From: Mycolicibacterium phlei
GTDB taxonomy: Bacteria > Actinomycetota > Actinomycetes > Mycobacteriales > Mycobacteriaceae
DNA: 64,000 nt
NCBI RefSeq assembly: GCF_001583415.1
Contig: NZ_CP014475.1
Coordinates: 496,001-560,000, forward strand
Direction of reading: 5' to 3'
Shown one piece after another: positions 34,429 to 62,621 of this stretch. The notes under the pieces were generated by a model. It was not told the origin of the DNA and searched no databases. It saw nothing but the letters and a program-made list of their open reading frames with translations. A program made the position numbers and the translations under genes. Numbering within the stretch: position 1 is the stretch's first letter; each line of letters starts with the position of its first letter.

Positions 34429-34980
34429 GTGACGTCGTCGACACCGCCGGAAGGGCCCTACGAACCGCAGCCTGACGAGTCCGACACCGGCCCGATCCCC
34501 GCGGTCACGTCGCACCCGCGTGGAACTGGCGTGCAACGGGATTCAGCGTGGGACACGCCGCTGATCATCAACCCCCGCCTCGTGCGGCGACAGCGCAACG
34601 TCAATCCGGTGGCCGTCACGGCGGCGGTGCTGGCCGCGGTGGCCGTCGGTGCCGCGGTGTACGGGATGACCCGCCAGTCCGGCGAGGACGTCGAACCGGC
34701 CGTGGCCGCTCCGCCGACCACCCAGGGACCTCAGGCGTCGGCGGAGGACGAGCAGCTGCTGCAGCGGCTGCCGAAGGGCTACCGCACGGGCGCATGCGAA
34801 CCCGCGGACCCGCCGGAAGGGGCGCTCGCCCAGGTGATCTGCGAACGCAACACCGACGCCGGCGGTCCGCTGTCGGGCACCTACACCCTCGTCGAGGACC
34901 GTGCGCAACTCGAGAAGACGTTCCGCGCGGTGATGGACACCGCGACACGGGTCGACTGCCCGGGCCGCATCCAGTCGCCC
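34429..34980 (+). pseudogene. 5' part of a membrane-protein gene split by the 27-kb island
   Basis: Codons 1-184 of a gene starting at GTG 34429. The product has a Pro- and Asp-rich cytoplasmic tail, a membrane segment (VAVTAAVLAAVAVGAAVYGM) and an external domain (LPKGYRTGACEPADPPEGALAQVICERN and GGPLSGTYTLVED). The coding sequence is cut after CPGRIQSP at 34980. The reading frame runs 25 more codons through island DNA to a TGA at 35058, giving an unrelated tail. The missing end, GPWRRNATPDR to AWWSKHS, lies at 62436-62621. The intact product would have about 244 residues. Function unknown. Confidence 0.8.
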
Positions 34981-35005
34981 GTTCACTGCCCGACAGGGCG
35001 TGTCG
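34981..35005. repeat. Left end of the island: terminal and imperfect direct repeats
   Basis: GTTCACTG (34981-34988) is the inverted copy of the right terminus. ACTGCCCGACAGGGC (34985-34999) is an imperfect direct copy of 62413-62426. The segment also contains CGACA-GGGCG-TGTCG (34991-35005), arms like those of a tyrosine-recombinase crossover site. A similar CGACA-AC-TGTCG is at 62408-62419. Confidence 0.65.
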
Positions 35006-35070
35006 AGGGCGTCCAAGATGTGGCATCGGTGATGATGGGATCGTTGCCCGTGCGGTGAGAGGGATCCGTA

Positions 35071-36579
35071 ATGGCTGGTAAATCTGCTGCCGGTTGGTCT
35101 CTGCACTTCTATGATTTCCAGCGCCGTTTCGTCTCGGTGGACGATGTGGTGCCCGGGTTGGGTGACATTGCGGACTGGGCGAAGCGCAATGGTGCGCGTG
35201 ATGGCACACCGTTCTTTCTTGATCCGTGGGGCCGTGCGGATGCTGTGGTGAACGCCTACTGGCGCGATCCGGTGTTAAGACGGCGAGCAACGGCGACGGT
35301 GCGCCGGTACGCCTTGTCGTTGAAGGTCTGGCTGGATTTCTTGCACGCGGTGGATGTTCGGTGGGACCACGCGTCGCGATCGGAGCTTGCTGCGTTCAAG
35401 GAGTGGCGACTGTCGGCGCGGGAGAATCCCCAGTATGTGAGTGCTGCCAGCTTCTGCGTTGATCGGTCGGCGATCCGCGGGTTCTATTTGTGGGCGGCCG
35501 AGCATCAGGGAGTTGAGAACCCGGTTCGAGCACGGGCGATAGCCACGTCATGGGCGGGTGGGCAGCGTGTGACTTTGGAGAGCACCCCGTCGGGGATGCG
35601 CAGGTCAGACGTGAAATGGCTTACTCCACAAGCATTTCGACTGTGGCGCAACCTAGGTTTGCGTGGCTTCACCACGGCTGGTATGCCGCACCCTGATTGG
35701 CGGGGATCGACCGAGGATCGTGATACCGCATTCGTCGACGGCTTGTTCGGGACCGGTTTGCGCATCGGTGAGTGGTCCAGTGTGTTGACGATCGAGGTGC
35801 CGACACCGGGCTCGGAGGGCCTGACGCGTTCGCGTGTTGCGTCCGCCTGCGCCAAAGGTGGTAGCGGACGAACCTTCTGGATACGACACCGCGTCTCTCA
35901 ACAGGTTGATTTCTATCTGCACGAGGGCAGTCGTACTGCGGCAGTCGCCCGTGCGCAGGCGGCGGGTCGCTACGAGCAGGTGGTGGATAGCTGGATCGCT
36001 GAACGGGTTCGCAGCGACAGACGATTGGACGTTGTCGATGATGAGGGTTCGCGGCGCGTGGTGAGTTTGGATGCGCTCGATCCGCTGTTGCGGATGAAGA
36101 TGTTTCGCCGGGTGCGTGGTGGGTTGGAGCCGATGTGGTTGTGGCTCAACCATGACGGGACGCCCCGCCCGAAGCACGCGTGGTACAAGACTTTTGACAG
36201 GGCGAACGCCAGAGTCGCAGGGGCATTGACGCACGAGCACGGTGCTCCGCTGTGGTGTCGTCCCCACATGTTGAGGCATTCCTTCGCGCTGCGCTGGTAC
36301 TGCATCGCGACGTTCGTGGCGTGGCGCCGCACCGGCATGTTGACCGCACAGGAGCAGCGAGACTTCCGCAATCAGCTCGGCGATGTGTGGTTCCTGCTGG
36401 CCACCTTGCTGGGGCATCGCAGCGCTGAGGTGACCCGGAATGTGTATCTGGAGCCCTTTCAAGCATTGCAGGTCGAGGAACTTGTCGCATTGATGGATGC
36501 CGATGATCGGCAATCCCTGGAGCGTCTCGTTGCCACGGTCGGCGTTGGTGAGCCGCGTGTGTTGACAGGGCATCGGTGA
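35071..36579 (+). CDS. ginA: Tyrosine recombinase GinA-like
   Basis: A 502-residue site-specific recombinase, first gene of the island operon. The ATG at 35071 has AGAGGGA 6 bases upstream. An N-terminal SAM-like DNA-binding domain (about residues 55-160) precedes a catalytic domain with all the key residues: Arg231 (GTGLRIGEW), His399-x-x-Arg402 (HMLRH), His449 (GHRS) and Tyr459 (NVYLE). It is much longer than a phage integrase, as in GInt and Tn554-type recombinases. Its codon use (more T- and A-ending codons) differs from the steroid genes next to it, a sign of foreign origin. It overlaps ginB by 4 bases. Confidence 0.85.
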   Translation: MAGKSAAGWSLHFYDFQRRFVSVDDVVPGLGDIADWAKRNGARDGTPFFLDPWGRADAVVNAYWRDPVLRRRATATVRRYALSLKVWLDFLHAVDVRWDHASRSELAAFKEWRLSARENPQYVSAASFCVDRSAIRGFYLWAAEHQGVENPVRARAIATSWAGGQRVTLESTPSGMRRSDVKWLTPQAFRLWRNLGLRGFTTAGMPHPDWRGSTEDRDTAFVDGLFGTGLRIGEWSSVLTIEVPTPGSEGLTRSRVASACAKGGSGRTFWIRHRVSQQVDFYLHEGSRTAAVARAQAAGRYEQVVDSWIAERVRSDRRLDVVDDEGSRRVVSLDALDPLLRMKMFRRVRGGLEPMWLWLNHDGTPRPKHAWYKTFDRANARVAGALTHEHGAPLWCRPHMLRHSFALRWYCIATFVAWRRTGMLTAQEQRDFRNQLGDVWFLLATLLGHRSAEVTRNVYLEPFQALQVEELVALMDADDRQSLERLVATVGVGEPRVLTGHR

Positions 36580-38360
36580 CGGGTCGACCTGCGGCGCAGC
36601 CGGATCCAGCGTGGCGTCCCGTATCGCGGCGCCGCGGTCTGGTCGTGAGGTTTGTCAGTGAGGACGGAGGGGTGTGGAAGGATTTCGATTTCGGTCGCCT
36701 CCCGGGTAACGGCGGCGTGTGTCACGATTTTGCGGTCGCGTTCGAGGAAGCTACCGGGGTGTTGGGAGTGTCCAAGCGGGTGCGGGGCGCTGGTGCGTTG
36801 TGGCAGGCCGCCCGGCACGCGTGCTGTTGGCTGGACGAGAACCGCCCGGGGATCGAGGGACTGGCCGCGCTGTCTGTCGCTGATGCCGGGTTGCTGGCCA
36901 TGTCCTGTCGGGTGCCCAGTGGGCCGGGTCCCGCGCCGGCGCTCAAGACGTTGCTGCGGTGCAGTCCTGTCGTCTCCGAGCAGGTCTGTCATGGGTTCGC
37001 GCGGGTGCGTCATCAAAGGAATCTTTCAGCGCGACAACCATATTCGGCTGACGAGTTTCGCCGGATCAATGTGGTGGCGCGGGCAATCGTTCGGCGGGCG
37101 CGAAGTCGGCTGCGGATGCATTGGGAGATGGTTGCCGATTTTCGTGGCGGTCGGTTCGATCATCTCCCCACAGCCGATCCGCGTCGCAGTCTGGCCGAAG
37201 TGCTCGATCACTGCGCCCGGGAAGGTGACTTTCCGCGCACCGCGTCGGGTGCCAGGGCGTACGTGACACGCCGGGCGGTCAGTGCTGCCGGTGGGTGTCG
37301 GTTGTTGCCGTTGCTGCATGTGACACCGGGTGAGGCGTGGGCGTTCGGTGTGCTGCTGGCCGGGCTGACCGGCCTAAACCTCTCGACGCTGGACGCACTG
37401 CCGGCCCCACACCGATCCGCGAGCAGCCCGGACGAACCCGGCATCGTCTTCGTCCACGCTGACAAAGCCCGCCGCGGCCGGCGATCGGTGATGACGGTGC
37501 CGGTGACAGCGCTGCGCCCAGAGCTTCGGCCACTCGGGGGCGACCATCAGCGCGCCGCGGTGCTCAATACGTCGCTCACGACGGCGTACGGGGTGTTCAT
37601 GTTGTTGCTGGAGCTGACCGAGCCGGCTCGCGCGCTGACCGGTAGCCGGCAGGCTTTTGTCTATTACAGCGCCCAGCCCGACGCGGTGGAAGGCAAACGC
37701 TTCGGCTACGGCATCAGCAGCACCGCCAGTGGTGTCGACGCGCGGCGACGGTGGATGGCGCCGTGGCTGACCGGGGATACCGAAGGTGATCAGCTGCTGA
37801 TGGGGATCAGCATGGACCGGTTACGTAAAACGTATCTGGAACGGGTCCGTATGCCGACAGCGCACACGCCAGCGACGTTAGCGGGCTATCTGGGCCGGAT
37901 GGATTCGGTGCGCACCGAGGGGTTTCAGATCGTGACCGAGGCGCTCAATGCCCAGGTCGCCCAAGCATTGTACCGCCGCTCGATGACCGTACATTCCAGC
38001 ATCGAGGACAACGGTTCTGGCCAGGATGCCGTTCTGGGGAGCTGTGCTGATTTCGAGCATTCCCCGGTCGACGGAAGACGCTGCCGCGCGTCGTTTCTGG
38101 CATGCCTGGACTGCAGCAACGCCCGCGCGTTTCCGCGGCACCTGCCCATTCAGCTGGTAGTCGCCGACCGGCTTCGTGACCTGCGCACCGAGATGCCGAT
38201 CGCGCAGTGGATCACCGAGCATGCCGGTCCACTGGCGCAGCTGGAGGACATCTTCGCCGAGTACGAACCGGCCCAGCTGGATGCGGCGCGCGGCCAGATC
38301 GCTCAGCGCGATCACCGCACCGCAACGCTGTTGCTGTCGGGAAACTTGGAAGCACCGTGA
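36576..38360 (+). CDS. ginB: Tyrosine-recombinase-like protein GinB-like, degenerate active site
   Basis: A 594-residue protein starting at GTG 36576 (GTGA overlap). The size and the C-terminal half resemble the large recombinase subunits of GInt/Tn554 elements, but the catalytic positions are altered. The Arg of the TG-x-R motif is Asn268 (GLTGLNLSTL), and H-x-x-R is Asp414-x-x-Arg417 (MDRLRKTY). A Cys cluster (Cys490, Cys503, Cys510, Cys513, in a CLDCSNA context) suggests a zinc-binding module, and a similar cluster occurs in ginC. I infer a structural or DNA-binding role rather than strand cleavage. Confidence 0.72.
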   Translation: MTGRPAAQPDPAWRPVSRRRGLVVRFVSEDGGVWKDFDFGRLPGNGGVCHDFAVAFEEATGVLGVSKRVRGAGALWQAARHACCWLDENRPGIEGLAALSVADAGLLAMSCRVPSGPGPAPALKTLLRCSPVVSEQVCHGFARVRHQRNLSARQPYSADEFRRINVVARAIVRRARSRLRMHWEMVADFRGGRFDHLPTADPRRSLAEVLDHCAREGDFPRTASGARAYVTRRAVSAAGGCRLLPLLHVTPGEAWAFGVLLAGLTGLNLSTLDALPAPHRSASSPDEPGIVFVHADKARRGRRSVMTVPVTALRPELRPLGGDHQRAAVLNTSLTTAYGVFMLLLELTEPARALTGSRQAFVYYSAQPDAVEGKRFGYGISSTASGVDARRRWMAPWLTGDTEGDQLLMGISMDRLRKTYLERVRMPTAHTPATLAGYLGRMDSVRTEGFQIVTEALNAQVAQALYRRSMTVHSSIEDNGSGQDAVLGSCADFEHSPVDGRRCRASFLACLDCSNARAFPRHLPIQLVVADRLRDLRTEMPIAQWITEHAGPLAQLEDIFAEYEPAQLDAARGQIAQRDHRTATLLLSGNLEAP

Positions 38361-40496
38361 CGCGAGCGGCCAGAATTCCCGACACGGTGGCCGGTGTCCA
38401 CCTCACCCCGGACACCGAGGTGCTACTCAACCGCCCGCTGTTCATCCCTGCAACCAGGTGCCGATTCGGCGACCCGGTATGGGATCTGTCCGCGGCCATC
38501 CAGGACCGCCACAGCGCCGGACAAGCTGTGCATTGGGATCGATTTCCGGAGCCGTTTCGCCAGGCCTGCAAGCTCTACCTGTTCGCTTTGCTCAACATCG
38601 TTGACAACGCGCCCCGTCTGGATGCGTCGCGTTCGCCGTACCCCCATGTCAAGACGATTCTGGGTGAGTTGGTGCCGCTGCGTCGGTTCACCAGGTGGCT
38701 CGTAGAGCGGGAGGTACTTTCCTTCAGTCACGTCAGCATCGACCACCTCGACAGCTATCTGCTCCACGTCACCGACGCACCCGGGGTCAGCGCCGGCACT
38801 CAACGCCGATCGCTGCAGGCAGTCAAGCGGCTCCACCTGTACCGGGACGTCCTTCCAACGCAATGTCGGCTTCCGGCCGCCACACTGTGGGGCAGGGCCA
38901 GCGCGCGAGGACTCGCCCAGTACGAGTCCTCCTGGGGTAAGCCGAACACCACGGCTCGCATTGATCCCGATGTCATGGAGCCACTGCTCTCGGCGGCCCT
39001 GGCCGTTAGCACCACTGTCGCCGCCGATCTGCTTCCTGCCGCACGCAACCTCCTCGCGATGCGCGCGTTGGCGCATCGCATCGCACCGGACATCCGCCGC
39101 GCTCGCACCAGCACGGTGTCGCTGCACGACACCACCACCGCACAGCTCGACAGTCTGCTGACCGCCCTGGCCCACCACGGCGACCCGCTTCCGGGTGTCA
39201 GCACCGGCGAGAGCACCTCGGTCGATCTCACGGGCCTGGCGGTGGCGGGATGGCTCAACCACACCGAACTCACACGCATGAACGACACGGCGAGCATGCT
39301 GGCCGCCCACGCACTGCCTATCGAGGCAGACATGGTCCGCACGACCACGTTCAGCACGATCGGCACGCACCGATGGCGGCACAGCCCTATCGAGGCCCCA
39401 GAAATCGTCGAACACCTTCGCTACATCACCACCGCTTGCTTTCTGGTGATCGCCTACCTGTCCGGTGTCCGGACCGGGGAAGCCCTCAACCTGCGTCGCG
39501 GATGCATCACCCGAGACCCGCAGCTGGGTTTGACGTTCATGTCCGGCCACCAGCTCAAGACAGGTGAGCGGCGTGGGGACCGATCACCGGCCACGATCCC
39601 GTGGGTGGTAACCGAGGAAACCGCCCACGCGGTCAGTGTTCTCGAACAGATCACCGCCGGCGATCTGCTCTTCCCCGGATTCCAGTGGTGCTCTCAGGAA
39701 CAGTTCCTCTACGGATCCCACCGGACGAGGACACCCGGGTCGATCAACACCGACATCACCCGTTTCATCGATTGGTTCAACCGCGCCGTCGCCCCCGCCG
39801 TCGATCACCCGCTGATTCCCGACGACCCGCAGGGCGCCATTCAGGTGCCGCGCCTGCGGCGCACACTGGCCTGGCACATCGTCCGCCGACCCGGCGGAAC
39901 CATCGCCGGCGCAACGCAATACGGTCACCTGCACACAGATCATCCAAGGTTACGCCGGCGGAGCAGACGCAGGATTCCTCGACGAGATCACCTTCGAACA
40001 GTTCCTGCACCGCGCCGAAACCCTCCACGATGACGCCCACCGACTCAAGCGCGGCGAACACGTCTCCGGCCCCGCAGCCGACGAATACAAGGCCCGCGTC
40101 GGCCGCGCGAACACTTTCGCCGGCCTAACTGTCACCACCACCAGCCAGGTCAACACCGCGATGGCCAACCCGGATCTGCAGATCCACCACGGCGCGCTGG
40201 TCACCTGTGTATTCCGCCCCGCCACTGCAGCGTGCCTGCCACACACCGACGACGTGACCGGACCCGTCTGGAGCCGCTGCCGTCTCGACTGCACCAACGC
40301 CGCCCGCACCGATCGCGACGTCGCGAACCTGCGCGCCCATGCCGACACGCTCACACACGACCTCAACAGCCTGACCCTGCCCGAACCGCTACGACAACGC
40401 ATCCATGCACGGCTCACCGAGCACGAAAAGGCACTCGACGCACACGAATCCAGCCGACCAGCAACACCCACCCGGACAGGACACCAGCAACGATGA
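38357..40496 (+). pseudogene. ginC: Tyrosine recombinase GinC-like, frameshifted before the catalytic Tyr
   Basis: Starts at GTG 38357 overlapping the ginB stop. The first frame encodes about 526 residues with Arg372 (SGVRTGEAL) and His507-x-x-Arg510 (WHIVRR), then QYGHLHT. At 39932-39938 (CACACAG) the frame must shift by +1 to continue as QIIQGYAGG, whose Tyr (codon 39951-39953) is the expected nucleophile. The second frame runs on through a Cys cluster (TCVFRPATAACL and CRLDC) to TGA 40494-40496. One lost CA unit would explain it. Uncorrected, the first frame ends at 40033 with a nonsense tail. The full length would be about 713 residues. Confidence 0.78.
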
Positions 40497-40909
40497 CCGT
40501 GCCGCCGCCGCGCACCACCAGAACCGATGACGAGCGCCAGCTCGTACTGGCCGCGATGAGCCGAATCCGGGACAACACCGCCCAACACGGCAACGGCGCC
40601 CACACCGTTGTCGCGTTGGCCAGCGAATCAGGGATACCCCGACAACGACTCTACGAACACCACGCCGACCTGCTCAACGAGTTCAAAGCCGCCGCCGCAA
40701 CCGGACCCGTTGCCACGAATGCCCGTGCCCTGCAACGTCAACTCGCCCACGCACGCGAGCACAATCACCAACTCGCCGCCGAAAACACAGAACTACGTGC
40801 CAAGATCCGGACACTGTCGGCAGCGATCGCAGAACTCACTCACCAAGGAGCCGAAGCCACGCATGTCATTGTCCCGATGCCGCGACGCCACCCGGGACTA
40901 TCGCGTTAG
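40493..40909 (+). CDS. ginD: Small coiled-coil DNA-binding helper GinD/TnpC-like (DUF6262-type)
   Basis: A 138-residue protein starting at ATG 40493 (ATGA overlap with the ginC second frame, which supports that frame being the real one). The N-terminal half has a helix-turn-helix-like segment (ALASESGIPRQRLYEHHADL). Residues about 83-121 form a coiled coil (LQRQLAHAREHNHQLAAENT and following). The small fourth gene of GInt operons and TnpC of Tn554 have this build. Expected to assist the recombinases in site choice or orientation. Confidence 0.75.
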   Translation: MTVPPPRTTRTDDERQLVLAAMSRIRDNTAQHGNGAHTVVALASESGIPRQRLYEHHADLLNEFKAAAATGPVATNARALQRQLAHAREHNHQLAAENTELRAKIRTLSAAIAELTHQGAEATHVIVPMPRRHPGLSR

Positions 40910-40932
40910 CGCGATAGTCCCGGTGCTGGCGT
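40885..40932. terminator. Large hairpin at the end of the gin operon
   Basis: A perfect 14-base stem (CCGGGACTATCGCG at 40892-40905 and its complement at 40910-40923) with loop TTAG, which contains part of the ginD stop codon. A further 6-base pairing (ACGCCA 40885-40890 with TGGCGT 40927-40932) extends it past a small internal loop. It could be the operon terminator, or a recombination site, since recognisable IS256-remnant sequence starts immediately to its right. Confidence 0.7.
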
Positions 40933-41059
40933 TTCTTGACGATCTGGGGCTCGAACGTGGATGCCCCTGGGAGTGTCTGAACAACGGTGGATCTGATCTT
41001 GGTCTGACACGCCGAGTTCGACCGAGCCGGTGGTGACGGTAAGTACGGCGTGGTGCGGG
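40924..41059 (-). pseudogene. IS256-family transposase remnant, middle part
   Basis: On the minus strand this reads VLTVTTGSVEL, then after frame breaks TFEPQIVKKRQ, the conserved middle of IS256-family transposases. It is the continuation of the N-terminal remnant at 43882-44060, from which it is separated by the inserted IS3-family element. Several frameshifts show long decay. Everything downstream of KKRQ is missing, ending at the gin hairpin. Confidence 0.75.
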
Positions 41060-41110
41060 TGATCCGCCCCGGCGTGTCTGGAGAGTTCTTCCGTTGGGAA
41101 GGATGGGCAC

Positions 41111-41437
41111 GTGGGATCGAAGTCATCGAGGCGGTATCCAGACGAGCTGAAGGTGCGGGCGGTGCAGATGGTGGCCGATCTGCGCAGCGAGACAGTTTCG
41201 GAGTGGGAGGCGATGGGCCGGGTTGCTGACCTGCTGGGCGTCGGTACTGCCGAAACGGTGCGCAAATGGGTCCGCCAGGCTGAGATCGACGCCGGCTCTC
41301 GGGCGGGGCGGACCAGCGAGGAATCCGAGGTCCTGCGCAAGCTGCGCCGGGAGAATGCCGAACTCAAGCGGGCCAACGCGATCTTGAAGGCGGCCTCGGT
41401 TTTCTTCGCCGCCGAGCTCGACCGGCCCTCTCAGTAG
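41111..41437 (+). CDS. IS3-family transposase OrfA
   Basis: A 108-residue helix-turn-helix protein starting GTG or ATG-like at 41111 (SSRRYPDELKVRAVQMVADL, then TAETVRKWVRQAEIDAG) with a C-terminal leucine zipper-like helix (LRKLRRENAELKRANAILKAAS). OrfB lies in the -1 frame, so the active transposase would be made by -1 frameshifting, probably at the TTTT run at 41400-41403. Confidence 0.88.
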   Translation: MGSKSSRRYPDELKVRAVQMVADLRSETVSEWEAMGRVADLLGVGTAETVRKWVRQAEIDAGSRAGRTSEESEVLRKLRRENAELKRANAILKAASVFFAAELDRPSQ

Positions 41438-42087
41438 TCGTGGAGTTCATCAGCGCCCACCAGCACATGCGGGTGGGCGTTGATGGTCTCAAGTGGGGTG
41501 TCGAGTCGATGTGCGCTGTGCTTTCCGAGTACGGCGTCACGATCGCCCCGTCGACGTATTACGCCCACCGCGCCCGTCAGGGCCCCTCGAAAGCCGACTG
41601 GGCCGATGCGCAGGTGATCGATGCGATCTGGCAGCTTCGCCAATCGCAGAGTCTGTACCGAGTCCTGGGCGCTCGTAAGACATGGATTGTATTGCGCACC
41701 AACGGTATCGACGTATCGCGCTGTGTCGTGGAACGGGTCATGCGGGAGATGGGTTGGCGGGGTGCGTGCAAGCGCCGGCGGGTGCGCACCACCGTCGCCG
41801 ATCCGGCAGCGACGCGAGCCCCGGATCGGGTCCGGCGTAATTTCGTCGCCGGTGCGCCTGACCGATTGTGGGTGGCCGATTTCACCTACTGCCGGACTCG
41901 TGCCGGCTGGGCCTACACGGCGTTCGTCACCGATGTCTATGCCCGCAAGATCGTGGGTTGGAAGGTGGCTACCGAGATGACCCAGAAGCTGGTGACCGAT
42001 GCGATCGACCACGCTATCGACACCAGAAAGCGTTCGGGTGCAGCATCTTTGGATTCACTTATCCACCACAGCGACGCGGGCTCGCAA
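41401..42087 (+). pseudogene. IS3-family transposase OrfB, 5' part
   Basis: The -1 frame from the slippery TTTT run reads through the HTH-like and integrase-core N-terminal regions: EFISAHQHMRVGV, STYYAHRAR, LWVADFTYCRTRAGW (first catalytic Asp) and LIHHSDAGSQ (second Asp), where it is cut by the IS30-family element at 42087. The rest is at 43546-43851. Independent translation could start at the GTG at 41440. Confidence 0.85.
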
Positions 42088-43542
42088 GGCGGATTCAATC
42101 GGTGGTCGCAACACCGGCTTGATGAAGTGAGTGTAGGTGTTCGGCGAAGGCTTCCGCGGGAGTGCGCCAGCCGAGGGTTTTCCGCGGCCTGGTGTTGAGG
42201 GTATGGGCGATCGCTGCCACGTCCTCGGCCGACCATCTTGAGAGGTCGGTCCCTTTTGGAAAGTATTGGCGTAACAGGCCATTGGTGTTCTCATTGGTAC
42301 CGCGCTGCCACGGACTCTTCGGATCAGCGAAGAACACCTTGACTCCGGAGGCGACCGAGAACTGGGCGTGCGCCGACAGTTCCTTGCCCCGGTCCCAGGT
42401 CAACGACCGACGCAGTTGCGCGGGCAACGTGGTGATCGTCTGTTCCAGAGCGTTGGCCATCGTGATGGCGCCATAGCCGGCCAACGCCGGCCCGTTCTTG
42501 GTCCGCGGAATTATCCCGTAACCAACTTCACGTGGCAGATGGACCAGCATGGTGAACCGGCTGCTGCGCTCGACCAGCGTGCCGATTGCACTGCGCTGCA
42601 AGCCAATCAGGAGATCACCCTCCCAATGTCCGGGAACAGCGCGATCATCGACCTCGGGTGGGCGTTGGCTGATCAACGTCTCAGGGGTGACATGGGCCCA
42701 CGCCTTGGACCGCGTTCGTGCCCGCGGTACCCGCAGTGCCCGGCCTCGGCGCAGGCAGCTGACCAGATCCCGCTTCAGCGCACCGCGAGATTCGACGTAC
42801 AGCGCTTGATAGATGGCCTCGTGGCTGATCCGCATAGTCACATCATCGGGGAAGTCCAGCGGGAGCCGTCGAGCGATCTGTTCTGGACTCCATGCCTGCA
42901 CCCAGGCCCGATCACCCCGGTGCGGCTTGTTGCGTCCCTTCCACGGGGCGGCGGCGGGACCGACGATGACCTGGCCATCAGCGCCGCGAACGACGCCGGA
43001 CAGTTTGTCCTGGACGTACTGACGCAGCCGGTCGTTGCTAACGAGCTTGGCGGTCTTGGGGCGGCGGGCGCGCCGCTCGGCGTGCCACTGCGCAGTGGAG
43101 GCCTTATAGTCGAGTCGATAGGTGCGGGTCGAGGCATTGCGGCGCAACTCCCGTGAGATGGTCGACGGTGCACGCTTGAGCCGCCGGGCGATCTCACGCA
43201 CCCCGGCGCCCTGGGCGCGCCATAACGCGATGTTCTCACGTTCATCCGAGGACAGGTAACGTCCCGAAACTGTTTCTGGCAAGCATGGATTCACTCCACC
43301 AGCGTGACGGAACCAGCGGAACCCAACCGGCGACGACACGCCCGCTTCGGCAGCGGCGTCCTCAGTCATAGCCCCCGCAGCGATCGCCGCCCAGAACCTC
43401 ACCCGATCCTGACGCCACGCCACCGACGGCCGACCCGGAGACGGAATCTGTCCCCGATACAACCGAACCGCCCGCTGCCGATCCAACACACCCATTCCAC
43501 ACCTCCATAATCGAGGTGTTGCGACGATCAGTTGAATCCGCC
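42088..43542 (-). mobile_element. IS30-family insertion sequence, 1455 bp
   Basis: The ends are imperfect inverted repeats of about 28 bases: GGCGGATTCAA and TCGCAACACC are shared, with a divergent 7-base centre. The element is flanked by the 3-base target duplication CAA (42085-42087 and 43543-43545). Removing the element and one CAA rejoins the IS3 OrfB frame exactly as SQYTAVAF. The insertion therefore looks recent and intact. Confidence 0.92.
42095..43495 (-). CDS. IS30-family transposase
   Basis: A 466-residue transposase. The N-terminal HTH is LSSDERENIALWRAQGAGVREIARRL then PSTISRELRRN. The catalytic DDE is seen as GHWEGDLLIG (Asp), LTWDRGKELS (Asp) and SPWQRGTNENTNGLLRQYFPKG (Glu, about 33 residues after the second Asp). 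The stop codon lies inside the terminal inverted repeat. No frame damage, so it should be functional. Confidence 0.92.
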   Translation of the reverse strand: MGVLDRQRAVRLYRGQIPSPGRPSVAWRQDRVRFWAAIAAGAMTEDAAAEAGVSSPVGFRWFRHAGGVNPCLPETVSGRYLSSDERENIALWRAQGAGVREIARRLKRAPSTISRELRRNASTRTYRLDYKASTAQWHAERRARRPKTAKLVSNDRLRQYVQDKLSGVVRGADGQVIVGPAAAPWKGRNKPHRGDRAWVQAWSPEQIARRLPLDFPDDVTMRISHEAIYQALYVESRGALKRDLVSCLRRGRALRVPRARTRSKAWAHVTPETLISQRPPEVDDRAVPGHWEGDLLIGLQRSAIGTLVERSSRFTMLVHLPREVGYGIIPRTKNGPALAGYGAITMANALEQTITTLPAQLRRSLTWDRGKELSAHAQFSVASGVKVFFADPKSPWQRGTNENTNGLLRQYFPKGTDLSRWSAEDVAAIAHTLNTRPRKTLGWRTPAEAFAEHLHSLHQAGVATTD

Positions 43543-43545
43543 CAA

Positions 43546-43851: not shown

Positions 43852-43881
43852 GAGAACCTCCCGACATGCCGGGGCGGATCA

Positions 43882-52455: not shown

Positions 52456-52462
52456 GATCCGC

Positions 52463-53991: not shown

Positions 53992-54886
53992 TCAGCGCCG
54001 CCCGGGCCAGAGTCTCCTCGGCCATCTTGACGTGTGCGGCGTCCACCAGCACGCCCTCGACCCCGACGGCGCCCCGCCCCTTGGCCTCTGCCTCCCGGTA
54101 CGCGGCGACATTGCGTTCGGCACGGGCGATTTCGTCGGCGGTTGGCGCGTAGACCTCGTTGGCGATCGGCACCTGGTCGGGATGGATGGCCCACTTTCCG
54201 GTGTAACCCATCAACGAGGACCGCCGGGCGTCCCGCTCGTAGCCCTCCAGGTTCCGGTAGTCCGGATAGGGTGAGTCGATCGCGTCGATCCCCGCGATGC
54301 GGGCCGCCACCATGATCTTGTTGCGTGCATAGACCCAGAAGTCACCGGGATACTCGCCGAGCGGATCGAAATTGGTGTCCACGCGGGCGCCCTGTGACAG
54401 CGAGAAGTCCCCGACGCCGAAGATCACCGCATCCAATCGGGGACTGGCCCGCACGATGTCCTCGGCGTTGGCCAGTCCCTCGACCTCCTCGATCAGGACT
54501 TCGAGGCGGATCTTCTTGTCCAGACCGAGCTTTGCCTCCAGCTGGGTCAGCAGGACGTCGACCCACCACACATCCCGTGCCGTCTTGGCCTTCGGGATCA
54601 CAATGGTGTCTAGGTGCGCTCCTGCGTGCGTGACGATCTCGATGATGTCGTCATGACACCATTCGGTGTCGAGGCCGTTGATCCGGACCGCGCGTGTGGT
54701 GCGGCCCCAATCGAGCTGGGTCAGCGCGTGAACGGCCTTGGCACGCGATTCCACCTTGAGCCCCATCGGTGTGGCGTCCTCCAGATCCAGGAACACCAGA
54801 TCGGCGCCGCAGGTGACGCCCTTGTCGAACATGTGGTCGTTGCAAGCCGGCAACGCGAGCTCAGAGCGGCGCAGCAGATTGGTCAC
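53975..54886 (-). CDS. HpcH/HpaI/CitE-family CoA-ester lyase
   Basis: A 303-residue CitE-type lyase. The GTG at 54886 has GGAAGAA upstream; the longer open frame runs inside the CoA-transferase gene. It has LRRSELALPACNDHMFDKG, VFLDLEDATP (metal-binding acidic residues), VLIEEVEGLANAEDI and VIFGVGDFSLSQGARVD. Members cleave citryl-, malyl-, citramalyl- or beta-methylmalyl-CoA; the exact substrate is unclear. With the adjacent CoA-transferase it could form an activate-and-cleave pair for a dicarboxylate such as citramalate or itaconate. That is a hypothesis. Confidence 0.83.
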   Translation of the reverse strand: MTNLLRRSELALPACNDHMFDKGVTCGADLVFLDLEDATPMGLKVESRAKAVHALTQLDWGRTTRAVRINGLDTEWCHDDIIEIVTHAGAHLDTIVIPKAKTARDVWWVDVLLTQLEAKLGLDKKIRLEVLIEEVEGLANAEDIVRASPRLDAVIFGVGDFSLSQGARVDTNFDPLGEYPGDFWVYARNKIMVAARIAGIDAIDSPYPDYRNLEGYERDARRSSLMGYTGKWAIHPDQVPIANEVYAPTADEIARAERNVAAYREAEAKGRGAVGVEGVLVDAAHVKMAEETLARAALISGGR

Positions 54887-54903
54887 AGGTCTTCTTCCAT
54901 CGG

Positions 54904-56103
54904 TCAGAGCACGCCGCGGGCGCGCAGTTCGTTGAGTTCGGCCGGCAACAGGCCCAACAGGTTTCCGTAGATCTCGTCGTTGTGTTCGCCCAGGGTCGGG
55001 CCGAGGTGGTCGATGCGTCCGTCGGCGCCGGAGAACCGCGGCACCGGTGCCTGCACCGTCACGCGACCCAACTGGCCGTCCTCTACCGCGACGAATACGC
55101 CGCGGTGGCGCAGCTGCTCGTCGGCAACCAGGTCCTCGATGTCGTAGACGGGGGCCGCGGCCACCTCCGCGTCGTCGAACACCGCCATCGCCTCGGCGAG
55201 GGTCTTGGTGGCCACCCACTCCGCGACGACGGCATCGACTTCTCGTGCCCGCGCCAGCCGACGCTGCGGGTCGGAGAAGTCGGCGTCGCTGACGAGGTCG
55301 GCACGCCCGATGGCTTTGAACACCCGAAGTGCCAGTGCAGGTGAGCTTCCCGACATCGCCAGCCACTTGCCGTCGGCGGTCTGGTAGGTGTTGCGCGGCG
55401 CCGAGATGTCCCAGCGGTTTCCGGCCCGCGCAGGCACCAGCCCCAATTGGTCGTAGCCCAGGAGTGTCTGCTCCAGCAGCCGGGCCAGCGGATCGATGAG
55501 ATTGATGTCGATCAGCTGACCGTCGCCACCGTGCACGTCGCGGTGATACAGCGCCATCATCACGGCATACGCGGCGTTCAGCGACGCCACCCCGTCGGCC
55601 AGCATGAACGGCGGCAGGGTCGGCGGACCGTCCGCCTCACCGGTCAGATGGGCGAACCCGCTCATCGCCTCACCGAGGGTGCCGAAGCCCGGCCGCTCGG
55701 CCTTCGGACCGGACAGGCCATAGCCGGTGATGTGCAGCATGACGATCTGGTCGTTGATCCGGCGCAGGGTCTCGTAGCCCATGTTCCACCGCGCCAGTGT
55801 CTGGGGGCGGGTGTTGACGACGACCACGTCGGCATGCTCGACGAGTCGGTGAGCCAGCGCCTGGCCCTCTGCGCTGCGCAAGTCGAGAGTGATCGACTTC
55901 TTGTTCCGCGACACCGACTTCCACATCAGGCCGACCCCGTCGCGCTGACTGCCCCAGGTCCGGATCGGGTCGCCGTGATGTGGCTGCTCTACCTTGATCA
56001 CCTCGGCACCGAACTCCCCAAGGTACGTTGCGGCCAGCGGGGCGGCGGCCAGCGTGGCGAAGTCCAGGACTCGGACTCCCTCAAGCATCGCGTTCGGTGT
56101 CAT
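54904..56103 (-). CDS. Class III CoA-transferase (CaiB/BaiF family)
   Basis: A 399-residue family III CoA-transferase. VRVLDFATLAAAPLAATYLGEFGAEVIKVE is the N-terminal fold; the SRNKKSITLDLRSAEGQ segment and GAEVIKVEQPHHGDPIRTWG are typical. The catalytic Asp is expected near residue 170, in GGDGQLIDINLIDPLARL or just before it. It starts directly at the stop of the monooxygenase gene (no gap) and is followed by citE, so the three form an operon. Substrate unknown. Confidence 0.85.
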   Translation of the reverse strand: MTPNAMLEGVRVLDFATLAAAPLAATYLGEFGAEVIKVEQPHHGDPIRTWGSQRDGVGLMWKSVSRNKKSITLDLRSAEGQALAHRLVEHADVVVVNTRPQTLARWNMGYETLRRINDQIVMLHITGYGLSGPKAERPGFGTLGEAMSGFAHLTGEADGPPTLPPFMLADGVASLNAAYAVMMALYHRDVHGGDGQLIDINLIDPLARLLEQTLLGYDQLGLVPARAGNRWDISAPRNTYQTADGKWLAMSGSSPALALRVFKAIGRADLVSDADFSDPQRRLARAREVDAVVAEWVATKTLAEAMAVFDDAEVAAAPVYDIEDLVADEQLRHRGVFVAVEDGQLGRVTVQAPVPRFSGADGRIDHLGPTLGEHNDEIYGNLLGLLPAELNELRARGVL

Positions 56104-57465
56104 CTACGCGCTCAACCGGGTCGATGCGGGCCGCTCCAATCCGAGGTGCCCGCGCAGGGTCGACGCCTCGTAGGCAGTGCGGAACAGCCCGCGCCGCTGC
56201 AGCTCCGGCACCACCATGCGCACCACGTCTTCGAATGCTCCGGGCATGTGCGTGGCGGCCAGGACGAACCCGTCGCAGGCCTGCGCCTCGAACCACTCCG
56301 CCATCTGGTCGGCCACCTGGGGGCCGGTCCCGACGAAGCGGGGGCCTTGCAGCAGCGTCGCCCGATGCCCGGCGAGGTCACGTACCGTCACCGTATCCCC
56401 GCCGATGTGGTTACGGATGTTCTGCACCAGGCCCCTGATCCCCGACACCGACGCGATCAGCTCGTCGGTGACCGGATCATCCAGACCATGCGCAGCGAAG
56501 TCGTAATTCATCAGTTCTGACAGCAGCGTGAGCGACGCCATCGGGTCGACGAGGTCATGGAGGAACATCGCCTCACGTTCCTTGGCGTGCGACTCGCTCT
56601 CGCCGACCACGGCATAGGCCATCGGGCAGATGCGCACGGCCGACGGGTTGCGTCCTGCCTCGGCTATGCGAGCCTTTTGGTCGGCGTAGTGCTCTCGTGC
56701 GATCGCCAGGCCGGGATCGCCGGTGAAGATCAATTCCGCCCAGCGGGAGGCGAAGTCGCGCCCCCGTCCCGAGGACCCGGCCTGCAGGATGACCGGCCGG
56801 CCCTGCGGGGTCCGGGGTACCGTCAGCGGTCCGCGTGCCGAGAAGTATTTGCCCTGGTGCCGGAGTTCGTGCACCTTGTCGGGGTCGGCGTACATGCCAC
56901 CGGCTCGGTCGTGCCGGATGGCGTCGTCGTCCCAGGTGTCCCACAATCCGGTAACCACGTCGAGAAACTCGTCTGCGCGGTCATAGCGCTCGTCGTGGTC
57001 CAGATGGGCATCGACGCCGAAATTCTGGGCTTCGCTGTCGTTGACGGAGGTCACCACATTCCATGCGGCGCGTCCGCGCGACAGGTGATCCAGGCTGGCG
57101 AACGTCCGCGCGACGTGGAACGGCTGGTAGTACGTCGTCGAATAGGTGGCGCCAAGGCCGATGTGCGATGTCGCTTGAGCGAGTACGCCGAGGATGACGC
57201 TGAGGTCGAGTTTGACCGGGCGCGCGCCGTAGCGGACCGCTTCAGCGACCGAACCGCCGTAGATGCCGGGCATGGCAAGTCGGTCGTCGAAGAACATCAG
57301 ATCGAAGCAGCCTTCCTCCAGCTGCCGCCCGACTTTGGCGTAGTACGCCGCGTCGAGATAGCCGTGTTCGGTGGCGGGGTGCCGCCACGATCCGGCATAC
57401 ACGGAGGTGCTTCCCGCCTGCATGAAAGCCACCAGAGACATCTTGTCGGTGCGACGCTGACCCAT
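56104..57465 (-). CDS. FMN-dependent monooxygenase of the NtaA/SnaA/DszA group
   Basis: Luciferase-like flavin monooxygenase of 453 residues. I chose the ATG at 57465 (MGQRRTDKMSLVAFMQAGSTS); a TTG at 57501 would place the palindromic operator inside the gene. Typical blocks are SWRHPATEHGYLDAAYYAKVGRQLEEGCFDLMFFDD, ATYSTTYYQPFHVARTFASLDHLSRGRAAWNVVTS and PVILQAGSSGRGRDFA. Group members oxidise sulfonates, nitrilotriacetate or dibenzothiophene sulfone with FMNH2 from a separate reductase. No reductase gene is nearby. Substrate unknown. Confidence 0.85.
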   Translation of the reverse strand: MGQRRTDKMSLVAFMQAGSTSVYAGSWRHPATEHGYLDAAYYAKVGRQLEEGCFDLMFFDDRLAMPGIYGGSVAEAVRYGARPVKLDLSVILGVLAQATSHIGLGATYSTTYYQPFHVARTFASLDHLSRGRAAWNVVTSVNDSEAQNFGVDAHLDHDERYDRADEFLDVVTGLWDTWDDDAIRHDRAGGMYADPDKVHELRHQGKYFSARGPLTVPRTPQGRPVILQAGSSGRGRDFASRWAELIFTGDPGLAIAREHYADQKARIAEAGRNPSAVRICPMAYAVVGESESHAKEREAMFLHDLVDPMASLTLLSELMNYDFAAHGLDDPVTDELIASVSGIRGLVQNIRNHIGGDTVTVRDLAGHRATLLQGPRFVGTGPQVADQMAEWFEAQACDGFVLAATHMPGAFEDVVRMVVPELQRRGLFRTAYEASTLRGHLGLERPASTRLSA

Positions 57466-57478
57466 GAACCGCAATCTA

Positions 57479-57512
57479 ACATCTGATATATCAAATTTCA
57501 AACGCTAGATGT
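57479..57512. promoter_or_regulatory. Putative GntR operator in the monooxygenase/GntR intergenic region
   Basis: The perfect palindrome TGATATATCA (57484-57493) lies in an AT-rich stretch, framed by ACATCT (57479-57484) and its complement AGATGT (57507-57512). It is between the monooxygenase start and the divergent GntR gene, where an autoregulatory FCD-type GntR protein would be expected to bind. Confidence 0.55.
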
Positions 57513-57533
57513 CCAAATTGCTAAGATCATCGG

Positions 57534-58211
57534 GTGGTCGGGATGGACATCGGCGGAACGGTGCGCGAACGCGCCGCCCGTGAGCTCCGCGACCGCATTC
57601 TCACCGGCGCGTTACCTGCGGGCACCCGAATCGACCTGGATGCGATTACCGCCGAGTTCGCCACCAGTCGCACGCCGGTACGCGAGGCGTTGCTCGAGCT
57701 GTCGTTCGAGGGCCTGGTTCGCGTGGCCCCGCGCAGTGGCATCACGGTGATCGGCATCAGCTCGGCCGACGTCCTCGACAGCTTCACAATCCTCGGCGTC
57801 CTCACCGGACAGGCGGCGGCCTGGGCCGCCGAACGCGTCACCGACGAAGAACTCGACCAGCTGCGGGCATTGGCGGCCGGCGTCGCCGAACACTCCGGCG
57901 ACGACGCCATCGGCGAAGCGAATTGGCGTTTCCACCAAGCCATTCACCGCGCCGCCCATTCCCCAAGGCTGCTCGCTGCGATCAAGCAGGCGGCACGCGT
58001 GGTCCCCACCAACTTCCTGGTCCTGTTCCCCGAGCACGAGAAACACTCGCTGTCCGAGCACGAAGAGCTCCTCGACGCACTGGAGAAACGTGACGCCGAC
58101 CACGCGCGGGTCATCGCCGAGCACCACGTCCTGGAAGCCGGCCGATCCCTGGCCGACTGGCTGGACCGCCGAAACGACCATCGGTCAGGGTCGCTGCCGA
58201 CAGCCCGGTAG
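57534..58211 (+). CDS. GntR-family regulator, FadR/FCD subgroup
   Basis: A 225-residue regulator starting at GTG 57534 (an ATG at 57543 is also possible). A winged helix-turn-helix occupies residues about 10-75 (ELRDRILTGALPAGTRIDLDAITAEF, then TSRTPVREALLELSFEGLV). An FCD ligand domain with metal-binding His and Asp residues follows (EANWRFHQAIHRAAHSPRL and LSEHEELLDALEKRD). Divergent from the monooxygenase-CoA-transferase-citE operon, which it most likely represses. Confidence 0.85.
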   Translation: MVGMDIGGTVRERAARELRDRILTGALPAGTRIDLDAITAEFATSRTPVREALLELSFEGLVRVAPRSGITVIGISSADVLDSFTILGVLTGQAAAWAAERVTDEELDQLRALAAGVAEHSGDDAIGEANWRFHQAIHRAAHSPRLLAAIKQAARVVPTNFLVLFPEHEKHSLSEHEELLDALEKRDADHARVIAEHHVLEAGRSLADWLDRRNDHRSGSLPTAR

Positions 58212-58460: not shown

Positions 58461-58598
58461 TACCGGATGCGCCGCGTCCGGTGGTTCATCGCCTCGTGGA
58501 ATGGGCATTGGCCGAATCGGTAGACCTGTCGTGGTCAGCCGCGTTCGGTTCGACGTCTCAAGGCGATGGCCTTCCGCCGTACCGAAGAGGACGTCCTC

Positions 58599-60881
58599 AT
58601 GACCGCAACACCGTTCACCGCCACCATCCTCGGATCGCCCCGTATCGGCCCGAATCGCGAACTCAAGCGCGCCGTCGAGAAGTACTGGGCCGGAAACCTT
58701 GACCGCAGCGGACTGGAGTCGGTCGCGGCCAAGATCCGCCGCGACACCTGGGAATCGCTGACCGCCGCCGGGCTGGATTCCGTTCCGGTGAACACCTTCT
58801 CCTACTACGACCACGTGCTCGACACCGCCGTTCTGGTCGGCGCTTTGCCTCCCCGCGTGGCCGGGGTAGCCGACGATCTGGACCGCTACTTCGCCGCCGC
58901 GCGAGGCGGCACCTACGACGGCACCGACATCGCTCCACTGGAGATGACCAAGTGGTTTGACACCAACTACCACTACATCGTCCCCGAACTCGGTCCCGAC
59001 ACCAGCTTCGCCCTCCACCCTGCCAAAGTCATCGAAGAGCTGAGAGAGGCACGGGCACTCGGTATTCCAGCACGCCCGGTCGTGGTCGGACCCATCACAT
59101 TCCTGGCGCTGAGCAAGGCCGTCGGCGGGGCCGTTGCTCCGATCTCCCGACTCGGCGAGCTGGTGAGCGTGTACGGCCAACTGTTGGAGCTGCTCGCCGA
59201 CGAGGGCGTGCAGTGGGTGCAGATCGACGAGCCCGTGCTGGTCACCGACATCCTCGACAACGCGGCCGAGCTGGCCGGGCAGACCTACAAGATCCTCGGC
59301 GGGCTGGCGAAGCGGCCCGCTCTGTTCGTCGCGAGCTACTTCGGTGAGCTCACCGACGCGCTGCCGGCACTGGCCCGCACGCCGGTCGAGGCGATCGGCG
59401 TCGACCTGGTGGCCGGGAGCGCCGCTGCGGTGGCCGCCGTGCCGGAACTCACGACCAAGACCGTGGTCGCCGGCGTCGTGGACGGCCGCAACATCTGGCG
59501 CACCGACCTGCAGTCGGCGTTGGGGACATTGGCGTCACTACTGGGGTCCGTCGGCAACCTCGCCGTCTCCACGTCGTGCTCGACACTGCATGTGCCCTAC
59601 ACCCTCGACGCCGAGTCGGAGCTCGACCCTGCACTGCGCAGCTGGCTGGCCTTCGGGTTCGAGAAGGTCACCGAGGTCGTCGCGCTGGCGCGCGGCCTCA
59701 CGCAGGGACGCGAAGCCATCGCCGGTGAGATCGCCGCATCCAACGACGCGATCGCCGCACGCAAGTCCGACCCGCGACTCAACAACGATCACGTGCGGGA
59801 ACGGCTCTCGTCGATCCTTGCCTCGGGCGCCCAGCGCGGCCCGGCCGCACGCCGGCGGGAGGTTCAGCAGGACCGGCTGGGCCTGCCCCCGCTCCCGACG
59901 ACCACGATCGGGTCGTACCCGCAGACGTCGGCCATCCGCGTGGCCCGCGCCGAACTGCGCAACGGCACCATCGACACCGCCGAGTACGAGAGGCGGATGA
60001 AACACGAGATCGCGGGGGTGGTGAAGTTGCAGGAAGACCTGGGCCTCGACGTGCTCGTGCACGGCGAGCCGGAGCGCAACGACATGGTGCAGTATTTCGC
60101 CGAACAGCTGACGGGTTTCTTCGCGACCGAGAACGGCTGGGTGCAGTCCTACGGCTCACGGTGCGTGCGTCCGCCGATTCTGTACGGCGACGTGGCGCGC
60201 CCAGAGCCGATGACGGTGAGCTGGGCGCAGTATGCCCAGTCGCTGACCGACAAGCCGATGAAAGGCATGCTCACCGGACCGGTCACCATCCTGGCGTGGT
60301 CGTTTGTCCGCGACGACCAGCCGCTGGCCGATACCGCCGCCCAGGTCGCGCTCGCCATCCGTGACGAGACCGTCGATCTGCAGGCCGCGGGCATCGTGAT
60401 CATCCAGGTCGACGAGCCCGCCTTGCGCGAACTCCTCCCGCTGCGGTCGAAAGACCAAGCGGCGTACCTGAAATGGGCCGTCGAGGCGTTCCGATTGGCG
60501 ACGTCGGGGGTCGAGGACATCACCCAGATTCACACTCACCTGTGCTACTCGGAGTTCGGCGAGGTGATCGGGGCGATCGCCGATCTCGATGCCGACGTGA
60601 CCTCGATCGAGGCCGCCCGCTCGCACATGGAGGTGCTCGACGACCTCAACGCCGCCGGGTTCAGCAACGGCGTCGGCCCCGGAGTCTACGACATCCACTC
60701 CCCGCGCGTTCCGACCACCGAGGAGATGGTGACCGCCTTGCGGCAGGCACTGAAAGCTGTACCCGCCGAACGCCTTTGGGTCAACCCTGATTGCGGACTG
60801 AAAACTCGCAAGACCGACGAGGTCACCGAGTCACTGCGCAACATGGTGGCTGCCGCCAGAGAAGCACGAGCGGACGCGTGA
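58599..60881 (+). CDS. metE: B12-independent methionine synthase
   Basis: 5-Methyltetrahydropteroyltriglutamate-homocysteine methyltransferase of 760 residues. I chose the ATG at 58599 ([25 protein letters not shown]) behind GAAGAGGA; the frame is open from 58566. It is the expected two-barrel protein with GSYPQTS opening the C-terminal half. The zinc ligands are His647 and Cys649 (HLCYSEFG) and Cys732 ([10 protein letters not shown]). Uses 5-methyl-THF without cobalamin, replacing MetH when B12 is absent. Its methyl donor could come from the metF-like gene of the same island. Confidence 0.94.
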
Positions 60882-60934
60882 TCCCTGCGGGTGGTGGCTC
60901 CGGTACGACGCCGAGGCCACCACCCGCGGAGAAG

Positions 60935-61192: not shown

Positions 61193-61342
61193 AGGTGATC
61201 GACCACTCCAGTAGGTGTGACTGCGGGCTTTCCGCGTACGCCATCGCACGAGCGGTACTTCCACAAATACATCACCAACTGTATATGTGTAAAGATGGAC
61301 AGGTATTCCGAGTGTAGGTCCATCAAGCGCGAGAGGATACCC

Positions 61343-61963
61343 ATGGCTGAGTACACCCTGCCCGAGCTCGATTACGACTATGCGGCCCTGGAACCGCATA
61401 TCTCCGGACAGATCAACGAGATTCACCACAGCAAGCACCACGCCACCTACGTCAAGGGCGTCAACGACGCGATCGCCAAGCTTGAAGAAGCGCGCGCCAA
61501 CGGCGATCACGGCGCGATCTTCCTGCACGAGAAGAACCTTGCGTTCCACCTCGGCGGGCACGTCAACCACACGATCTGGTGGAAGAACCTGTCCCCGCAC
61601 GGTGGCGACAAGCCGACCGGGGATCTCGCGGCTGCGATCGACGACCAGTTCGGATCGTTCGACAACTTTCGCGCGCAGTTCACCGCGGCCGCCAACGGTT
61701 TGCAGGGGTCCGGCTGGGCGGTGTTGGGCTACGACACCCTCGGTGACCGGCTGCTGACCTTCCAGTTGTACGACCAGCAAGCAAATGTCCCACTGGGGAT
61801 CATCCCGCTGTTGCTGGTCGACATGTGGGAACATGCGTACTACCTGCAGTACAAGAACGTCAAGGCCGACTATGTGAAGGCGATCTGGAACGTCGTCAAC
61901 TGGCAAGACGTGCAGGTGCGCTTCGCCGCTGCCACCGGCAAGGGGCCGGAACCGATCGTCTGA
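61343..61963 (+). CDS. sodA: Superoxide dismutase, Fe/Mn type
   Basis: A 206-residue superoxide dismutase starting [33 protein letters not shown], where the first metal His is present. Further ligands occur in [15 protein letters not shown] (His) and [11 protein letters not shown] (Asp and His). GAGAGGA precedes the ATG at 61343. No signal peptide, as in the mycobacterial SodA that is exported by another route. The upstream 150 bases are AT-rich with TATATGTGTAAAG as possible promoter. Confidence 0.93.
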
Positions 61964-62412
61964 GCGGCACAGTCGGCGCCGAGGGCAGTCTTGGTCCTAT
62001 CGCTCTCGAAGTGCTCGAATCTTCAGCAGCGCCGCTGCGCGACAACGACGGGCGGCGCTTACCGCCGGATATCGCGGGTGTGGTGCTGGCTTCGTCGTGT
62101 GGTGTTGGCCTTCTCAAGGCCGCCATAGGTTCGGTCATGCTCGAGGCACGGTGCTGAACCCAAGGCTCGGGTTGCGCGGAGGGGCGCCCCGATTATCCAA
62201 ATCAACTAAGCTGCAACGCTTCTTGGCGAGGAATACCTTGGACTGTGTTTGACACATTTCTGCGAATGCGCTCGGGAAGACGGCCAATTTGCAGTTGAGG
62301 CCCGAGCCAACTCGATACCAGCCCCGAACCGGGTCTCACCGCGTCTCAGTTCAGCGTGAACAGTGAATCAGGATGTCTCTCGCGCATCCTGATTATGCTA
62401 GTGTCTCCGACA
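61964..62412. other. Gene-free right part of the island with an AT-richer end and a hairpin
   Basis: No convincing gene. From about 62200 the sequence is clearly richer in A and T than the surrounding genes (for example ATTATCCAAATCAACTAAG), as expected for the short AT-rich 3' end of GInt islands. A perfect 10-base stem (AATCAGGATG at 62366-62375 and its complement at 62385-62394, loop of 9) lies 33 bases from the island end and could be a terminator or recombinase-binding site. Confidence 0.6.
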
Positions 62413-62434
62413 ACTGTCGACAGGGCCAGTGAAC
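62413..62434. repeat. Right end of the island: terminal and imperfect direct repeats
   Basis: ACTGTCGACAGGGC (62413-62426) is the imperfect direct copy of 34985-34999 (T in place of CC). CAGTGAAC (62427-62434) is the inverted copy of 34981-34988. The host gene resumes two bases later. Confidence 0.65.
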
Positions 62435-62435
62435 A

Positions 62436-62621
62436 CCGGGCCCGTGGCGGCGCAACGCCACCCCGGACCGGATCAGCGGTCAGCTGTTCTGCGGTCTGCG
62501 CGACGGTGATCCGATGATCGCCTGGACCGACGACGTCAAGATGACGGTCAGCGCCGTGCGGTCGGGCGCCGACGGCCCGACCTTCCCCCAGCTCTACGCG
62601 TGGTGGTCGAAACACTCGTGA
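62436..62621 (+). pseudogene. 3' part of the membrane-protein gene split by the island
   Basis: The 61 codons PGPWRRNATPDRISGQ through FPQLYAWWSKHS and a TGA (62619-62621) have no start codon of their own. They complete the external domain of the protein that begins at 34429: the left part ends CPGRIQSP and this part goes on GPWRRN. The Pro codon is present on both sides (CCC left, CCG right), so a short target repeat of 2-3 bases is possible. Confidence 0.8.

Follow-up and report, generated by a model that had tools for sequence, protein, structure and literature searches.

How one membrane-protein gene of Mycolicibacterium phlei came to lie in two pieces, and what the DNA between them brings to its host, is the question raised by this locus. 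The window analyzed here is a stretch of 64,000 nucleotides (positions 496001-560000 of contig NZ_CP014475.1, assembly GCF_001583415.1) from a complete (100%) host genome of one contig and 5,349,645 bp (G000). Most probably, the intervening DNA is a B12-independence module that originated on the chromosome of a mycobacterium, was captured there and was transferred. Its structure (Table 1), its site, a sister island, the single copies of metE and prpD, and the riboswitch matches are shown below; its transfer, its regulation, and its benefit to the host are inferred.

Table 1. Coordinates of the split gene, the island and its cargo within the window
Feature	Position	Strand	Remarks
Target gene, left part	34429..34980	+	Membrane-protein gene, codons 1-184; intact orthologs abut here
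Left end of element, GTTCACTGCCCGACAGGGC	34981..34999		Conserved across 19 distinct left junctions
P1 (GinA/IntA position), tyrosine recombinase	35071..36579	+	All catalytic residues; 502 aa
P2, recombinase-fold protein	36576..38360	+	Without first arginine and first histidine; 594 aa
P3, large recombinase-like protein	38357..40496	+	Two parts matched in different frames, 38357-39937 and 40161-40496
PD, small fourth protein of operon	40493..40909	+	
Stretch absent from G368 sister island	40923..44184		~3.26 kb
IS3-family element	41111-42198 and 43516-43851	+	Interrupted by IS30-family element
IS30-family element	42095-43495	-	Splits IS3-family element; IS pair spans 41111-43851
Cobalamin riboswitch RF00174	44294..44475	+	76.7 bits; before MTHFR_2
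MTHFR_2, mycobacterial methylenetetrahydrofolate reductase	44627..45517	+	635.6 bits
Pyruvate carboxylase	45521..48946	-	
prpC, 2-methylcitrate synthase	48909..50039	-	
prpB, methylisocitrate lyase	50036..50953	-	
prpD, 2-methylcitrate dehydratase	50950..52464	-	
ScfR-domain regulator, RamB/PrpR type	52567..53991	+	Divergent from prpD
CitE-like C-C lyase	53975..54886	-	
Class III CoA-transferase	54904..56103	-	
NtaA/DmoA-family FMN monooxygenase	56104..57501	-	
GntR/FCD regulator	57534..58211	+	
Cobalamin riboswitch RF00174	58261..58472	+	83.9 bits; before metE
metE, cobalamin-independent methionine synthase	58566..60881	+	
Fe/Mn superoxide dismutase	61217..61963	+	
AT-richer far end, terminus CAGTGAAC	62174..62434		55.8% G+C
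Target gene, right part	62435..62621	+	GPW... readable from 62439

The island occupies 27,454 bp (34981-62434) between GTTCACTG and CAGTGAAC, and it cuts one target gene at a proline codon; the last base of codon 184 is 34980, and the reading is regained at 62439. Nine relatives (L014 to L022) have the two halves of the ortholog side by side, with the end of the left match and the start of the right match falling on neighboring bases. In L014 (G011), for instance, the left part stops at 2106 and the right part begins at 2107 with no gap, and ltp2 lies to the left of the gene, with the genes for the DUF1942 lipoprotein and MaoC to its right. Among the nine, ltp2 adjoins in L014 and L016, MaoC is found in L014 and L018, and the lipoprotein gene is present in most. 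The uninterrupted junction reads CPG(N/R)IQSP followed directly by G(P/A)W in the orthologs whose junction was read. The earlier note had claimed that an island splits a single membrane-protein gene, with the frame breaking and resuming at the two positions given above, and had proposed a search for the uninterrupted gene in island-free relatives; the sequence and the abutting orthologs bear out both claims, and that search found the gene in all nine, twice with ltp2 beside it. Its placing of steroid genes on both outer sides is upheld in part, by family matches (lipid-transfer thiolase, P450, acyl-CoA dehydrogenase, SDR) for four of nine left-hand proteins; that the flanking region is the cholesterol-degradation cluster, as we take it to be, comes from established knowledge.

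The two ends of the island are inverted relative to each other, GTTCACTG at 34981-34988 and CAGTGAAC at 62427-62434, and form terminal inverted repeats that are perfect over 8 bp and extended imperfectly. Host bases xCCx are found at both junctions, and a clean 6-bp spacer is absent. An imperfect direct repeat of 14-15 nt, ACTGCCCGACAGGGC and ACTGTCGACAGGGC, lies near the two ends; its subterminal position and its conservation in other elements favor a role within the predicted recombinase-binding ends over one as an att repeat. The G+C content of the last 260 bp is 55.8%, against 65.3% for the whole island. Counted without identical 60-base flanks and without motif matches less than 60 bases from a locus end, 16 of 19 distinct left junctions, that of the window included, encode CP(G/P)xxQ(S/C/T)P; the remaining three are one CRGNIQSP, in a reading frame that contains stops, and a pair (L093, L204) in which only the final QSP or RSP is found. 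On the right, PGPW is encoded at 12 of 17 distinct junctions and missing from 5. The target gene family includes Ser/Thr kinases (four of six proteins tested), and PknE was the best PDB match of one. The presence of the element in a steroid locus is incidental, since what it recognizes is a coding motif of this gene family, wherever the gene happens to lie.

A sister island was found in another species of the genus (G368), matching at 94.3% over 5,953 and at 93.2% over 18,289 aligned positions; it is 24.2 kb long, has PGPW codons at its right end, and sits in a different target gene. Since it has the same two ends, chance is excluded as the origin of the island structure. The stretch that it lacks encloses the IS3- and IS30-family insertions of the window (41111-43851), which the earlier note did not include. 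A cousin element of ~11.1 kb in a third species (G089; L209, 2952-14053) interrupts the same target gene as the island of the window, at the identical codon; it is flanked by ltp2 and the lipoprotein gene and carries a P450 and a LuxR-type regulator. Of 12 further assembled elements, seven, with lengths of ~10 to 21 kb, have the right half of a target gene directly at their right end; within the stretch examined, this half was not found in G248, G296, G148, and G310, and other sequence follows the right-end motifs of G148, G296, and G310. By alignment search with P2, 76 of 396 genomes of the genus matched at an E value of 0.001 (18 of them, host included, below 1e-200), a scan of named genomes gave 30 loci distributed over Mycolicibacterium, Mycobacteroides, Nocardia, Rhodococcus, Streptomyces, Nocardioides, Frankia, Actinacidiphila, and Flexivirga, and P2 matches were also present in 85 plasmid records, alphaproteobacteria among them. 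In G301, which holds three such cassettes, a ~10-kb cousin (L196, 2709-12668) encodes MerB, a MerC-like protein, and a flavin disulphide oxidoreductase. A 75% identical cassette lies at a CPGNIQSP junction on the Mycobacterium intracellulare plasmid NZ_LT703506.1 (L210); this 324-kb plasmid is typed as mobilizable and is a possible vehicle for the cassette. Two sphingomonad plasmids (L213, L214) have related sets of three recombinase genes, after which a gene for a zincin-like metallopeptidase takes the place of the small fourth gene.

In established biochemistry, MetE does the work of MetH without B12, and the methylcitrate cycle is likewise the B12-free counterpart of methylmalonyl-CoA mutase. 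In the complete host genome, metE and prpD have one match each at an E value of 1e-10, both on the island; MetH and the methylmalonyl-CoA mutase family, present in all eight genomes searched, are encoded outside it in the host, and a second MTHFR_2 gene also lies outside it. Four compared relatives (G011, G027, G019, G034) have neither metE nor this prpD, so the functions brought by the cargo are ones that a genome can lack; G089 and G301 have metE only, prpD being absent. At an E value of 1e-100, 237 of the 396 genomes of the genus had a match to metE, and 203 had one to this prpD. The distance between the two genes, taken in 61 genomes with both on one contig (genomes with them on different contigs, G000, and G368 being left out), is within 34 kb in 55, among the matches listed. 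Because of this proximity, the cargo appears most likely to be a captured mycobacterial chromosomal locus, and since metE and prpD are neighbors on many mycobacterial chromosomes, their joint presence on the island need not reflect selection there. The genes for the CitE-like lyase, CoA-transferase, monooxygenase, and superoxide dismutase fall outside the B12 explanation; the first three form a subcluster (53975-57501) that adjoins metE also on the G372 chromosome. In G286 (contig C167, L190-L191), all 12 cargo genes of the island have a match, partial for pyruvate carboxylase, and no recombinase match was obtained within the stretch examined; 126 bases at the contig end are 97% identical to positions 41059-41184 of the window, beside the IS3-family genes.

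The earlier note picked up neither the riboswitches nor the B12 logic behind the cargo. Both riboswitch matches of the island lie above the RF00174 gathering score of 31.5, flank the methylcitrate-cycle cluster, and recur in G368 and G286; no such match was obtained for the prp operon itself. On the chromosomes of G372 and G148, the stretches examined have one riboswitch each, before metE; the MTHFR_2 gene of G148 has no riboswitch match, and that of G372 lies outside the stretch examined. Five RF00174 matches were obtained in the host at an E value of 0.001, four of them above the gathering score and two on the island. Two further matches, one below the gathering score, are located ~30-46 kb left of the window (G000:C1 450114-467125). 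Repression of metE by B12 via a riboswitch has been reported in M. tuberculosis and M. smegmatis, according to the accessible text of PMC8088520. As far as these loci are described in the accessible text of PMC4428469 and PMC8088520, the island shares with mycobacterial chromosomes the B12 riboswitch before metE and a B12-independent methylcitrate route beside the B12-dependent one, but differs in that the set is found on a mobile-type island and has a second riboswitch before the methylenetetrahydrofolate reductase gene. Judged from titles and abstract openings, no metE or cobalamin-riboswitch island resembling this one was found in the literature covered; one paper on the methylcitrate cycle with islands and integrases describes, in the text accessible, a prpDBC cluster and not an island.

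The recombination operon at the left end comprises three recombinase-type proteins and the small protein PD. In P1, all six catalytic residues (R231, K262, H399, R402, H449, and Y459) are invariant among 11 sequences. P2 has no Pfam family match; its predicted model gave nothing significant with Foldseek alone, and tyrosine recombinases occupy the 32 best VIA-align rows. Across 23 P2 sequences, N268 stands at the expected first arginine and D or Q at the first histidine, K297, R417, and Y438 are invariant, and H430 is nearly so. In P3 (14 sequences), R372, K401, R501, R502, and H524 are invariant and the tyrosine nearly so. The P3 gene of the window changes frame near 39.94 kb; its two parts share one frame in all 12 close relatives having both, G368 included, and two distant relatives (L109, L113) have P3 frame changes of their own. 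With P3 out of frame, the copy in the window is probably no longer able to move. In Mycolicibacterium septicum (L093, 11653-14073), the P3 gene has an apparent in-frame extra of ~177 bases, in which residues 551-577 are repeated. In a comparison with plasmid operons, matches at 1e-9 or better were obtained for P1 with the first and for P3 with the third protein of the Novosphingobium, Klebsiella, and Paraburkholderia operons. For P2, the second protein of the Novosphingobium operon was matched at 2e-9 and that of Klebsiella, weakly, at 0.001, with no match below 0.05 to those of the Paraburkholderia, Pseudomonas aeruginosa, and Burkholderia glumae operons, and PD has no match in the compared plasmid operons. 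In the alignment, the second proteins of all five plasmid operons are without arginine at the first-arginine position of P2, and those of P. aeruginosa and B. glumae have an arginine adjacent to it.

These features bear on the class of the element, which the earlier note had labeled GInt, with a ginABCD-like operon. As presented in the accessible text of PMC5385486 (2017), GInts have GinA and GinB with RHRHY and lack the first arginine in GinC, the third protein; they carry 2.5-70 kb of cargo, a short AT-richer far end, and imperfect direct repeats of 10-17 nt. The island shares with that description the four-gene operon at one end, a large cargo from related bacteria and within this size range (sister elements measure ~10-24 kb), the short AT-rich far end, and a high site specificity that is sometimes intragenic; its P1 and P3 have clear matches in the A and C proteins of four-gene plasmid operons of GInt type, and its P2 has a weak one in the B protein. 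It differs in that its target is a coding motif of a gene family, and Actinobacteria are unmentioned in the main text of that paper. The tripartite layout, the inverted termini, the AT-richer opposite end, and the site specificity noted earlier all hold, and so does the presence of the direct repeat, of 14-15 nt but subterminal, and of the four recombination genes, except that P3 is frame-changed. The label itself fits only in part: P1 is complete, P3 has R372, and the first arginine is missing in P2, the second protein. Because one stated mark of GInts is absent, in a comparison made by description only, we place the island in an actinobacterial branch of the four-gene islands related to GInts and SEs, rather than calling it a GInt. 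No GInt-type integrase island in Mycobacterium was found in the literature covered, mostly papers outside subscription. Actinobacterial Tn554-like transposons (Van Houdt et al. 2012), which in the accessible text of PMC3414803 have an ordinary and a long recombinase plus a small protein and occur in Mycobacterium, resemble the island but have two recombinase genes; because a third recombinase-fold protein, P2, separates P1 from P3 in the window as well as in its close relatives, an element of two recombinases and TnpC only was ruled out. So was a RIT, with three recombinases of ~315-410 aa, by the lengths of P1 (502 aa), P2 (594 aa), and the P3 relative in L084 (714 aa).

Might the island instead be a strand-biased circularizing element (SE), of which one strand is copied out with no empty site left? 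In the accessible text of Idola et al. (2023; PMC10214605), the SE order intA-tfp-intB-srap corresponds to a full recombinase, a catalytically incomplete protein, a large recombinase, and a small protein, an order that the island shows by catalytic type and size only, together with inverted terminal sequences and few target sites. We regard this as improbable: Tfp is said there to lack the catalytic RHRY residues, whereas P2 retains the lysine, arginine, histidine, and tyrosine of the set; SEs have, in that text, 13-19 bp imperfect inverted repeats and a 6-bp spacer, the latter not seen in clean form at the site described above, and are reported from Gammaproteobacteria only. The island, compared by description, differs also in its tens of kilobases of metabolic cargo. 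That there was no insertion at all, the cargo being ancestral here and the two gene parts never one gene, can be given practically no credence, as it is already contradicted by orthologs that abut between the same neighbors, and further by the location of the sister island in another gene and by the different element at the same codon in G089.

A more serious alternative, still unlikely in our view, is accidental capture: a ready-made chromosomal prp-metE neighborhood would have been picked up, with B12 playing no part in its spread or benefit. The common proximity of metE and prpD agrees with it, as do related elements with other cargo, such as a mercury-resistance set in G301, the P450 in G089, and a multicopper oxidase in G120; the four relatives devoid of both genes speak against it, as does the keeping of two riboswitches in both G368 and G286. 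The reading of the cargo as a B12-independence module is preferred. It is probable that the island arrived site-specifically and provides B12-free methionine synthesis and propionate breakdown through the only metE and prpD of the host, together with two predicted riboswitches. By a slight balance, we also favor the wider proposal of a transmissible B12-independence unit, which has a coding-motif landing pad in a mycobacterial sensor gene family and in one insertion gives a B12-dependent mycobacterium riboswitch-controlled MetE and methylenetetrahydrofolate reductase and a complete methylcitrate cycle.

In the proposed mechanism, a circular form of the island would insert at DNA coding for CPGxIQSP and GPW, between these two motifs, in a family of sensor-like membrane proteins, and P1, P2, P3, and PD would bind the ends GTTCACTG...CAGTGAAC for this insertion. 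Ample B12 would, through the two riboswitches, keep metE and the reductase repressed, and the host would then rely on MetH and methylmalonyl-CoA mutase. Under B12 shortage, the riboswitches would lift this repression from MetE and from the enzyme making its methyl donor; in the same condition, PrpC, PrpD, and PrpB would convert propionyl-CoA and oxaloacetate to pyruvate and succinate, and pyruvate carboxylase would replenish the oxaloacetate.

If this is true, the B12 dependence of mycobacteria, which is usually discussed as chromosomal gene gain or loss, would be changeable by one mobile island with its own B12 sensors. The island also represents an actinobacterial branch of four-gene recombinase islands in which site choice is open to test, the site being a conserved protein motif read as DNA that several genes of each genome contain. 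Because the host encodes its B12-independent enzymes on the island and their B12-dependent counterparts at other places in the genome, this division of labor can be tested by simple gene removal.
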